From NCBI GenBank assembly GCA_022451485.1, contig JAKUQS010000007.1:79746-143745 (forward strand): DNA of 64,000 bases, in the 5' to 3' direction. The notes under the pieces were generated by a model that was not told the DNA's origin, did no database searches, and worked only from the letters and a program-made list of their open reading frames with translations. A program made the position numbers and the translations under genes. The DNA comes from Gammaproteobacteria bacterium. GTDB taxonomy: Bacteria > Pseudomonadota > Gammaproteobacteria > Arenicellales > UBA868. Shown here piece after piece: positions 59,537 to 62,618 of this stretch (positions are counted from its first letter, which is position 1; each line of letters begins with the position of its first letter).

Positions 59537-60484
59537 TCAGGAGCTAAGCTCATGCAGGAAGTCGGTCGCACAGTCCTTGATACTGCGTTGGCCCATGGCG
59601 ATTTGATCGCACAGTGTGGTGATAAGTCCTGACTCATCACCCAGTACTTTACCTTTAACAAGTTCCGCTGACGATTGGGCTAGCAGTTCGCGGATGCGAG
59701 CGCGTCGTCGATCTGCTCGCGTTGAGTTCCGCCCTTGAGCGGCTGTATTGGCTGCCGTGAGCATCTCATCGATTCCTTCGCCCGACAGGGCGTTGGTGGC
59801 GATCACGGGCACCTTGCGGTTGCCTGATTGTCGCAGTGCCAAACTTGAACGCAACTGCTCTATGGTGGTTTTGGCCGGGATTAAATCAGCTTTGTTGACG
59901 ACCAACACGTCGGCGATTTCAAGGATACCGGCCTTTAGTGCCTGAATGTCGTCTCCTTGCCCGCCCGTGCAGACAACGATACGGGCATCAGTGATCTGTG
60001 TGATTTCCTGCTCGTTTTGGCCTGTTCCCACAGTTTCAACTATGACGACGTCGAAGCCGGCCGCGTCGAAGACGTCTACCATGCGATGAATATGGCGCGT
60101 CAGGCCGCCGAGGTGGCCCCGTGAGGAGAGTGATCGTATGAAGACCCCCCCATCTTGGGCATGATCGGTCATGCGCAGGCGATCACCGAGAATGGCGCCG
60201 CCTGTGATAGCGCTGGAGGGATCGACGGCGGCTACGGCGACCTGGAGATCTTGCCTTCGCAGGTGAGCAATGGCCGCATTGATCAGCGTCGATTTGCCGC
60301 AGCCGGCGGGACCGGTTAGGCCGATCACGGTGGCTTGACCGGTGTAACCAGTGATTTCTTGGCAAAATCCAGAGGCGGCGACACTGTCGCCTTCAACCAG
60401 GCTGAGGGCTTTCCCAATGGCAGCGCGGTGACCTGCGCACACGGCGCTTGCCAGTGAGTCAGTGGGTTTTGAGAGATTGACCAT
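59537..60484 (-). CDS. meaB: MeaB/ArgK-type G-protein chaperone of B12 mutase
   Basis: 315 residues. GLTGPAGCGKSTLINAAIA is the P-loop, VAAVDPSSAITGGAILGDR is typical of the MeaB family, VETVGTGQNEQEI carries switch residues, and VNKADL the guanine-specificity motif. MeaB proteins gate adenosylcobalamin loading and protect the mutase. ATG 60484 overlaps the mutase stop (TGATG). This tight coupling supports a dedicated partner for the adjoining mutase. Confidence 0.93.
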   Translation of the reverse strand: MVNLSKPTDSLASAVCAGHRAAIGKALSLVEGDSVAASGFCQEITGYTGQATVIGLTGPAGCGKSTLINAAIAHLRRQDLQVAVAAVDPSSAITGGAILGDRLRMTDHAQDGGVFIRSLSSRGHLGGLTRHIHRMVDVFDAAGFDVVIVETVGTGQNEQEITQITDARIVVCTGGQGDDIQALKAGILEIADVLVVNKADLIPAKTTIEQLRSSLALRQSGNRKVPVIATNALSGEGIDEMLTAANTAAQGRNSTRADRRRARIRELLAQSSAELVKGKVLGDESGLITTLCDQIAMGQRSIKDCATDFLHELSS

Positions 60485-62172
60485 CACTCAACGATCAGGG
60501 GCTGACCAAATCCAAGTTCACGCCGCAGACAGGCGACAGTCTCACCATGGGTAACTCCGATCGCGGTGCCGGCAACGACCGCGGCAAACACGTTATCGTC
60601 TTTTGAATTTGCAGCGCGTGCGATATTCGAAAGCGCTGCACTGACTTTTTCCTGGTCTCGCTGACGTTTGAAAACGCGCAGTGACTCGACATGGCGGCCC
60701 ATGGTCTTCGAGTCAGGGCGTTCGGTTGCTGGCGAGGGGTCGTTCGTCTCGTTGTCATTAGTTGTGTAACAGTTAACGCCGACGATTTTTTGATCGCCAT
60801 TTTCAACGCGTTCTTGCCAGGCCAGTGCAGAGCGGCCAATCATCGCCTGGACCAATCCCTTTTCCACGGCACGGTACATGCCGCCGGACTCGGCAATGGT
60901 ATCCATAACAGCAAGAATTTTCTCTTCCATCTGGTCAGTGAGTTGTTCGATGTACCATGACCCGCCCAGGGGGTCGATGACATCGCATAAATGCGCTTCT
61001 TCTCTCAACAAATTCTGTGTGGCGACGGCAACGCGCGCCGGACCCTCATTGGGCGTGTTAATCACCTCGTCGTACGCATCGGTATGCATTGACTGCAGGC
61101 CGCTGAGAATACCCGCAATGGCTTGCACCGTGACGCGTGCAATATTATTTAGTGGTTGCTGCCGAGTCAGGTCAACGCCCGAGGTTTGACCATGAAACTT
61201 GAAGCGTTGGGATCTAGGATCCCGTGCGCCGAGTTTGTCTCGCGTTAGGCGGGCCCAGATGCGTCGCCCAGCACGAAACTTGGCAACCTCCTCAAATAGG
61301 CTCATCGATATATCGAAAAAGAAAGTGAACCGTGGCAGGACGTCGTCCGGATCCATGCCGTGGTTGATACAGTCTTCGCCGTACTGCAGGGCAGAGGACA
61401 AGGTGAAAGCCATTGCCTCAGCCGGCGTTGCACCGGCTTGTTGCATATGCTGGCCCACCACGGACAGCGGATTCCAGTGCGGCACCCGCTCGCGGCAATA
61501 GCTGATGTGATCGAGCAGAATGCGACGCGCACCGGGGAGTGACAGGCGAAAAAACATGTGGTTAGCGACACAGTGCGACAGGTAGTCACTTTGGTTTGAA
61601 GTGCCTGTGATCTTTTGCCAATGGACGTTGCGTTGTTGCGCCACGTTGAGCACAAAGGCGAGCAGGGTAAACGGCGACGGGTCGTTCATCGATGTTGAAA
61701 TTTCTCCCACCGGGACCCCGTCCAGGGCGGTTGCCATATGATCAACGGTGTTCACCACGGTGCCGCAGGTGCCAAGCAACGGCAGTGGCACCTCATCGCA
61801 ATCGTTACCGCGGTAAACCGAGTTACACGGAATAAGGCTAATGGCAGTGGTCCCCGCATCGAGCAGTTTCATCACCCGTCGGTTGTACTCAGCCGGTGTA
61901 CCCAGCCCGATCAGTTGCCGCTGGCTCCAGGTGCGGCCCCGGTGCATCGTGGAGTAGATGCCCCGGGTATAAGGGGTTTGCCCCGGTAGGCCGAGTCGAT
62001 CAACGTAATCTAGGGGAGGATCGGTGTCGGGCAGATAGAGTGGATCGATTTCTATTCCAGATCGGTTGTAGACCGGTCGCTCGTTAGCAAGATTCTGTGC
62101 GTAGGTCTTTTCCCAATGTTCGACTGCTTGGTCGTATGCGCCTAAGCGTTGTTTCTTAGTGGTCTCGGACAT
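60484..62172 (-). CDS. Divergent B12-dependent acyl-CoA mutase, catalytic subunit
   Basis: 562 residues homologous to the TIM-barrel subunit of methylmalonyl-CoA mutase: YTRGIYSTMHRGRTW, AGATPAEAMAFTL with the cofactor-contacting His232, KFRAGRRIWARL, and QSMHTDAYDEV. The conserved Tyr of TMYRGRPW is His77 here. The usual YDSDxP stretch reads RGNDCDEVPL, and GTIQNDILKE reads GTSNQSDYLSH. These changes fall at acyl-group binding positions, so the substrate is probably not methylmalonyl-CoA. The B12 domain is a separate protein (next gene), as in isobutyryl- and 2-hydroxyisobutyryl-CoA mutases. Confidence 0.88.
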   Translation of the reverse strand: MSETTKKQRLGAYDQAVEHWEKTYAQNLANERPVYNRSGIEIDPLYLPDTDPPLDYVDRLGLPGQTPYTRGIYSTMHRGRTWSQRQLIGLGTPAEYNRRVMKLLDAGTTAISLIPCNSVYRGNDCDEVPLPLLGTCGTVVNTVDHMATALDGVPVGEISTSMNDPSPFTLLAFVLNVAQQRNVHWQKITGTSNQSDYLSHCVANHMFFRLSLPGARRILLDHISYCRERVPHWNPLSVVGQHMQQAGATPAEAMAFTLSSALQYGEDCINHGMDPDDVLPRFTFFFDISMSLFEEVAKFRAGRRIWARLTRDKLGARDPRSQRFKFHGQTSGVDLTRQQPLNNIARVTVQAIAGILSGLQSMHTDAYDEVINTPNEGPARVAVATQNLLREEAHLCDVIDPLGGSWYIEQLTDQMEEKILAVMDTIAESGGMYRAVEKGLVQAMIGRSALAWQERVENGDQKIVGVNCYTTNDNETNDPSPATERPDSKTMGRHVESLRVFKRQRDQEKVSAALSNIARAANSKDDNVFAAVVAGTAIGVTHGETVACLRRELGFGQPLIVE

Positions 62173-62174
62173 AG

Positions 62175-62618
62175 CTATGGCGCCTCGTCGATGGTTGCGG
62201 CACTGTCGTTTCGTGCTTCGGTAGCAAATGTTGTCACCTGTTCGCAGATGAATGCACTGGATACCCCCGGCCCAAAGACGGCACTGACGCCGGCGTTAAA
62301 CAGCAGGGCATGTTCGTCGTCTGGGACGATTCCACCGACTACGACCCGTATGTGACCCAGTCCCGCGACCGTTAGTGCCCGCATTAGGTCGGGCACAATC
62401 AGATGGTCCGTTGACAACGAGCTGATGCCGATGACATCGACATCTTCTTGCAACGCTAGATCAACGACGGCATCAATCGACTGCCAGGGTGGCGTATAAA
62501 TGACCTCAAAACCCGCATCACGCAGGAAGGCGGCGACCAGGCGGCTGCCGCGGTCGTGTCCGTCAAGGCCAATCTTAGTAATGAGCACGCGCGAGGGACG
62601 GGTAGTTTCGCTATTCAT
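62175..62618 (-). CDS. Acyl-CoA mutase small subunit, cobalamin-binding
   Basis: 147 residues forming one B12-binding Rossmann domain. KIGLDGHDRGS has DxHxxG, with His21 as the lower cobalt ligand; GISSLSTDH and VVVGGIVPDDE complete the motif set. It begins with an ATGA overlap on the TetR stop and ends two bases before the catalytic subunit, so the two mutase parts are made together. Confidence 0.95.
   Translation of the reverse strand: MNSETTRPSRVLITKIGLDGHDRGSRLVAAFLRDAGFEVIYTPPWQSIDAVVDLALQEDVDVIGISSLSTDHLIVPDLMRALTVAGLGHIRVVVGGIVPDDEHALLFNAGVSAVFGPGVSSAFICEQVTTFATEARNDSAATIDEAP

Follow-up and report, generated by a model that had tools for sequence, protein, structure and literature searches.

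A two-subunit adenosylcobalamin-dependent acyl-CoA mutase of a distinct clade, probably acting on pivalyl-CoA, in a gammaproteobacterium of the Arenicellales

The window, i.e. the whole stretch of DNA analyzed here, comprises 64,000 nucleotides of contig JAKUQS010000007.1 (assembly GCA_022451485.1) from a gammaproteobacterium of the order Arenicellales. Its minus strand encodes both subunits of a predicted adenosylcobalamin (AdoCbl)-dependent acyl-coenzyme A (CoA) mutase, in a gene row with the order TetR regulator, small subunit, large subunit and MeaB chaperone. The genes overlap by 4 bases at the TetR–small-subunit and large-subunit–MeaB junctions, and a class III CoA-transferase gene follows in the same row, 185 bases after the MeaB gene. 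The TetR start at 63214 is our choice, the open-frame list giving a longer frame. The palindrome ahead of it recurs in two loci of the same genus (L004 and L005), and a search for its pattern in the other mutase loci did not find it outside the genus. The features are as follows.

63226–63247, unstranded: palindrome AAAGTAAAC-ATTC-GTTTACTTA, 22 bases, 11 bases ahead of the TetR start; candidate operator
62615–63214, minus strand: TetR-family regulator, 199 amino acids; stop overlaps the small-subunit start (ATGA)
62175–62618, minus strand: mutase small subunit, 147 amino acids, B12-binding domain with the motif KIGLDGHDRG; His21 is the expected axial ligand
60484–62172, minus strand: mutase large (catalytic) subunit, 562 amino acids, predicted TIM-barrel acyl-CoA mutase
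59537–60487, minus strand: MeaB-type G-protein chaperone, overlapping the large-subunit stop; TIGR00750, 271 bits, above the cut-off
58134–59351, minus strand: class III CoA-transferase, 405 amino acids, neighbour of the mutase row with a candidate pathway role only

The two mutase genes show the features of the AdoCbl-dependent acyl-CoA mutase superfamily, a catalytic subunit of the barrel-type mutase fold (Pfam MM_CoA_mutase, 518 bits) and a B12-binding subunit with the DxHxxG motif (Pfam B12-binding, 83 bits), with the catalytic and B12 domains on separate chains. A preliminary description of this DNA had proposed a two-subunit AdoCbl mutase with intact fold and B12 motif, and this is borne out by both frames, their Pfam matches and the intact KIGLDGHDRG. 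The window's genome has three mutase-family matches: this enzyme, a 718-amino acid frame of the methylmalonyl-CoA mutase (MCM) type and a 1092-amino acid frame of the IcmF type.

The acyl pocket was compared in an alignment of 169 clade sequences (the window, 42 genome loci, 6 plasmid copies and 120 database proteins) with 11 references. As the 120 database proteins are the best-scoring of 5484 matches among 8000 scored candidates, the invariance reported below holds for close relatives (~57% identity or more), and a good number of the rows nearly duplicate one another. The count leaves aside L044 (partial), L045 and L048–L050 (30–39% identity, used as references), the copies L052–L058 from genomes of the window's family and the second Sphingobium copy. 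Chain numbering is one lower in 1req and eleven higher in 4r3u than the literature residue numbers used here. We take the MCM pocket residues to be Tyr89, Gln197, Arg207, Tyr243 and His244, those of 2-hydroxyisobutyryl-CoA mutase (HCM) to be Ile90, Asp117 and Gln208, and those of isobutyryl-CoA mutase (ICM) and IcmF to be Phe and Gln at the Tyr89 and Arg207 places; the letters in the PDB chains agree for MCM, those in 4r3u agree for HCM, and the IcmF-type protein of the window's genome has the same Phe and Gln. The corresponding places in the window, all on the minus strand, are listed with their conservation among the 169 sequences.

61912–61914, minus strand: codon of Leu87, at the place of MCM Tyr89 and HCM Ile90; Leu in 168, an unreadable X in one
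61831–61833, minus strand: codon of Ile114, at the place of HCM Asp117; Ile in 90, Leu in 78, Cys in 1
61819–61830, minus strand: Pro-Cys-Asn-Ser 115–118, in place of the MCM/HCM FDxPT motif; Pro115, Cys116 and Ser118 in 169 each, residue 117 Asn in 128 and Cys in 41
61591–61593, minus strand: codon of Gln194, at the place of MCM Gln197, kept; Gln in 169
61561–61563, minus strand: codon of Asn204, at the place of MCM Arg207 and HCM Gln208; Asn in 169
61447–61452, minus strand: codons of Gln241-His242, at the place of MCM Tyr243-His244, the His kept; Gln and His in 169 each

The window enzyme therefore has neither Tyr89 and Arg207 of the MCM pocket, nor Ile90 and Asp117 of HCM, nor the Phe/Gln pair of IcmF. 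Judged from these letters, loss of Arg207 would leave a substrate carboxylate without its partner, loss of Asp117 would do the same to a 2-hydroxyl, and what remains looks like an aliphatic pocket. With the Tyr89, Arg207 and Tyr243 places all altered, the enzyme most likely does not use methylmalonyl-CoA.

The preliminary description had based its case on three stretches, STMHRGRTW, RGNDCDEVPL and GTSNQSDYLSH. All three are literally present, and they are not chance or assembly noise, as most of the corresponding positions are conserved in the 169 sequences and 98%-identical copies of the mutase occur in two other genomes. Their interpretation is partly supported. His77, put forward as a key change, aligns with the Tyr of TMYAFRPW, while the contact residue Tyr89 lies ten residues on, at Leu87; among the 169 sequences, 157 have His and 12 have Tyr at position 77. 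The change to GTSNQSDYLSH does include a one-residue insertion, yet the Gln equivalent to MCM Gln197 is retained. The claim of a non-canonical acyl pocket thus stands for the Tyr89, Arg207 and Tyr243 places but not for residue 77 or for Asn123 of RGNDCDEVPL, which varies across the clade (Ile, Asn, Val, Tyr, Leu, Phe and others) and is therefore no specificity determinant.

A tree of 39 rows (24 clade, 7 MCM, 2 HCM and 6 others, among which neither ethylmalonyl-CoA mutase nor stand-alone isobutyryl-CoA mutase is represented) places the window enzyme outside both MCM and HCM, with support of 100/100 for its clade, 100/100 for the 7 MCM rows and 100/99 for HCM. Placement within the true MCM clade, which the preliminary description had named as a refutation of its reading, did not occur. 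The clade may be the closest sister of MCM (92/78), but this branch is not starred and the program warns of long branches meeting. The large subunit is 33–34% identical to solved MCM and HCM structures. A structure comparison shows the fold in common with these mutases; a family absent from its list is not thereby excluded. Xaut_5043 of Xanthobacter autotrophicus Py2 falls within the 100/100 clade. At E ≤ 1e-180, 25 of the 109 genomes searched in the window's order carry the clade mutase. Of the 33 genomes of the window's family, 7 carry the gene at full length, an eighth (G003) has it split over two frames, and fragments occur in G030 and G031. Besides X. autotrophicus Py2, carriers include plasmids of Sphingobium, Diaphorobacter, Roseovarius, Pseudosulfitobacter and Sulfitobacter, as well as Nocardioides, Prescottella, Pseudomaricurvus, Cycloclasticus and others. 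The pocket changes mark an old, common clade. The idea that this enzyme rearranges a different acyl-CoA is upheld insofar as methylmalonyl-CoA is most likely not used, but not as a private oddity of this protein.

We estimate a probability of about 0.6 that the enzyme is an AdoCbl-dependent acyl-CoA mutase of a distinct clade that interconverts pivalyl-CoA and isovaleryl-CoA. An authentic two-subunit α2β2 pivalyl-CoA mutase was reportedly found by database search by Kitanishi, Cracan and Banerjee (JBC 2015), and is said to have pivalyl-CoA/isovaleryl-CoA activity without isobutyryl-CoA activity. Xaut_5043/5044, to which the window subunits are 67% (large, over 561 amino acids) and 66% (small) identical, is presumably that assayed enzyme. 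The type appears already described, and the window enzyme, while real, is probably not new chemistry. The sole other mutase match on the Xaut_5043 plasmid is Xaut_5021, an HCM (84% identity to 4r3u, Ile90 and Asp117 kept), and its cluster holds the ligase Xaut_5019, annotated as a phenylacetate-CoA ligase.

Neighbouring genes were compared in 53 clade loci. Some of these loci nearly duplicate each other or are closely related (window/L004/L005, L015/L066, L034/L040 and L070/L071) and so do not count as independent, and short contigs hide neighbours. A small-subunit homologue is present in 52 loci, within 150 bases of the large subunit in 51 and 1.9 kb off in L035, and a MeaB homologue (at least 35% identity) in 44. 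In four loci (L009, L010, L013 and L019), an Xaut_5019-like ligase (42–43% identity) lies 1.5–4.5 kb from the clade mutase; that of L019, the sole one compared with solved structures, scores 360 bits against 2-hydroxyisobutyryl-CoA synthetase (6hdw) and 257 against phenylacetate-CoA ligase. 2-Hydroxyisobutyrate and pivalate are isosteric, and by this analogy an acid isosteric with 2-hydroxyisobutyrate, e.g. pivalate, would be a natural guess for the substrate acid. Elsewhere in the window's genome are an isovaleryl-CoA dehydrogenase (646 bits to 4o5m) and a methylcrotonyl-CoA-carboxylase-type beta subunit (817 bits to 3u9r); the dehydrogenase, carboxylase beta, biotin carboxylase and enoyl-CoA hydratase genes stand in one row, a leucine-pathway row that could take up isovaleryl-CoA. 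Plasmid regions of Pseudosulfitobacter and Sulfitobacter carry, after the mutase operon and a thioesterase gene, TetR, carboxyltransferase, crotonase, biotin carboxylase and acyl-CoA dehydrogenase genes, the carboxyltransferase being of the methylcrotonyl-CoA/AccD1 kind (588 and 612 bits).

In the proposed mechanism, the small subunit would hold cobalamin via His21 and the large-subunit barrel would bind the CoA ester. The 5′-deoxyadenosyl radical would abstract a hydrogen from one of the methyl groups of pivalyl-CoA; the thioester carbonyl would migrate off the quaternary carbon onto the CH2 so formed, leaving a tertiary radical that would regain hydrogen to give isovaleryl-CoA. With Leu87, Ile114 and Asn204 the pocket would be aliphatic, having space for the gem-dimethyl carbon but nothing to pair with a carboxylate or a 2-hydroxyl. 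Loading and protection of the cofactor would fall to MeaB and control of the operon to TetR, and the isovaleryl-CoA formed would be fed into the leucine pathway. The genes, the clade, the residues and the leucine-pathway genes are observations, and the substrate, the reaction direction, the loading of the cofactor and the regulation are proposals.

Several points weigh against pivalyl-CoA as the substrate. The decisive link, the identity of Xaut_5043 with the assayed enzyme, is a presumption. Among the papers covered by the literature search, none has the phrase pivalyl-CoA mutase or the locus tags Xaut_5042–5044; four contain the word pivalyl-CoA and one names plasmid pXAUT01. The HCM-type ligases are on the strand opposite to the mutase in all four loci, three of which are from kindred Actinomycetota, while Xaut_5040, the ligase beside Xaut_5043 itself, scores higher against phenylacetate-CoA ligase (117 bits) than against 6hdw (90 bits). 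No ligase of the L019 kind was found at E 1e-70 in the window's genome, and across the order such matches show no association with the mutase (3 of 25 mutase genomes versus 6 of 84 others). The carboxylase beta of the window's genome scores 838 bits to a chain named propionyl-CoA carboxylase beta versus 817 to methylcrotonyl-CoA carboxylase. Nearly every genome of the order has a methylcrotonyl-CoA-type carboxylase (24 of the 25 with the mutase, 72 of the 84 others), so its co-occurrence with the mutase is not discriminating and was dropped as support. The two Sulfitobacter-type plasmid regions are near-copies, and their dehydrogenase is no clear isovaleryl-CoA dehydrogenase (231 bits to 4o5m, with a general acyl-CoA dehydrogenase best at 310). 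Finally, the PaaI-type thioesterases, PaaK-like ligases and branched-chain-type ATP-binding cassette (ABC) transporters at many loci would suit other acids too.

This last point leads to the strongest alternative, that the substrate of the clade is another acyl-CoA whose alpha-carbon is branched or quaternary, such as a longer 2,2-dimethyl acyl-CoA or a 2-arylpropionyl-CoA, with pivalyl-CoA at most a side substrate. We regard it as possible, at roughly half the weight given to pivalyl-CoA. In 26 of the 53 loci a PaaI-type hotdog thioesterase lies within 3 kb of the mutase. Other genes close to it are a PaaK-like ligase of the Xaut_5040 kind (4 loci), a long AMP-binding ligase (8 loci) and an ABC transporter ATPase (9 loci), and such sets often serve aromatic or larger acids. 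The breadth of the clade, which spans Actinomycetota, one Rokubacteria genome and several proteobacterial groups, speaks for it as well. The 2-hydroxyisobutyryl-CoA synthetase-related ligases at four loci point instead to a small C4–C5 acid, and the near-invariance of the pocket suggests a single substrate type. In its full form, the alternative tentatively holds that a clade in Pseudomonadota, Actinomycetota and Rokuibacteriota rearranges a quaternary-carbon or aryl-bearing acyl-CoA that no characterized mutase mainly takes, in concert with a PaaI-type thioesterase, at times one fused to MeaB; in this picture the TetR–small–large–MeaB cassette is in places carried on predicted conjugative plasmids. 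If true, it would reveal a common, unrecognized route for branched-acid breakdown. MeaB frames with a C-terminal PaaI-type hotdog thioesterase match stand next to the mutase in L016 (11437–12876), L020 (11626–12969) and L068 (16688–17875), and are apparent fusions as read from the sequence.

A divergent HCM or ICM is unlikely. It would share the two-subunit layout with HCM, yet the HCM Asp117 place is Ile or Leu in 168 of 169 clade sequences and the Gln208 place is always Asn, the two HCM rows form their own branch in the tree, and Xanthobacter has a separate HCM just as the window's genome has a separate IcmF-type frame. An MCM, as database family names and the possible sister relation would have it, is very improbable with all three of Tyr89, Arg207 and Tyr243 replaced, the enzyme outside the MCM clade and a standard MCM-type frame elsewhere in the genome. 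We thus rejected the MCM, HCM and ICM identities on pocket letters and tree.

The CoA-transferase at 58134–59351 belongs to the succinate-glutarate/hydroxymethylglutarate type, with a score of 479 bits against a cut-off of 750. Orthologues (83–100% identity) occur in 8 of 33 family genomes and adjoin the mutase in 5 of them, from 3 genera. In one of these genera, G003, G004 and G005 have the CoA-transferase in the same neighbourhood without the mutase cassette. In G006 the MeaB–large–small cassette lies between the CoA-transferase and a 273-amino acid gene (L093 8476–12044), whereas in G003–G005 these two genes are adjacent with 415 bases between them (L098 8179–8595, L099 8122–8538, L100 6947–7363), and this gap is a natural mutase-free site. 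As the CoA-transferase stands without the mutase in three genomes, gain or loss of the cassette took place next to a gene that was already there, and we do not claim the transferase as a dedicated activating enzyme. On the plus strand of the window lie a thiamine-diphosphate enzyme (55203–56867; PRK08199 subfamily, 861 bits, above the cut-off) and, after it, a creatininase-like protein (56893–57654; 112 bits, below the 235-bit cut-off). Among the compared loci, only the same genus has this pair near the mutase. The thiamine enzyme was rejected as an acyl-CoA lyase partner: it has the mutase for a neighbour in L005, from that genus, and not in L093 or L094.

Three further observations concern mutase copies. 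The G003 mutase (G003:C255:7411-9052, in L096) is split over two reading frames, the break falling near residues 302–310, either through an assembly error or as a pseudogene. A plasmid of Sphingobium sp. YC-XJ3 has the TetR–small–large–MeaB row twice (L067 14962–16629 and 25299–26966), each with a thiolase/AMP-ligase pair (one thiolase accession for both) and with insertion-sequence transposases between them, an apparent recent duplication. A second two-subunit mutase clade, with Tyr89 and Arg207 kept and Ala at the Tyr243 place, is found in L068 (27686–29311), L049 (10001–11608) and L048 (3031–4620); it is accompanied by enoyl-CoA hydratase, CoA-transferase and GTP-binding protein genes in L068, and by a CoA-transferase gene and a MeaB homologue in L049.

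Database names for clade proteins are methylmalonyl-CoA mutase or acyl-CoA mutase large subunit. If the pivalyl-CoA assignment is true, a whole clade, present in about a quarter of the searched genomes of the order, is wrongly or vaguely named, and degradation of pivalate-like quaternary-carbon acids may be commoner in nature than the few known users suggest. The combination Leu87/Asn204/Gln241/PCxS offers a simple sequence test for annotation.

Among known systems, Xaut_5043/5044 of X. autotrophicus Py2, which we take to be a pivalyl-CoA mutase, belongs to the same clade and has the same TetR, small, large and MeaB order. Xaut_5043 shares with the window enzyme Leu, Asn, Gln, His and Gln at the Tyr89, Arg207, Tyr243, His244 and Gln197 places, but has Leu for Ile114 and Cys for Asn117. 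The downstream genes differ, being a thioesterase, a PaaK-like ligase and an ABC transporter in Xanthobacter and the CoA-transferase in the window. HCM (4r3u) has in common with the window enzyme the two-subunit layout, the fold and the catalytic His and Gln; it differs in overall sequence (34% identity) and in Ile90, Asp117, Gln208 and a Tyr, which are Leu87, Ile114, Asn204 and Gln241 in the window. MCM (1req, 2xij; 33% identity) likewise shares the fold and the His244 and Gln197 places, whereas its Tyr89, Arg207, Tyr243 and FDLPT/FDLAT motif are replaced and the B12 domain of the window enzyme is on a separate chain. IcmF (4xc6, and 5cjw, titled with pivalyl-CoA) also has the fold and, according to PMC10481361, interconverts pivalyl-CoA and isovaleryl-CoA; it is a single chain with a G-domain and with Phe and Gln in the pocket, and the window enzyme is 31% identical to the IcmF-type protein of its own genome.

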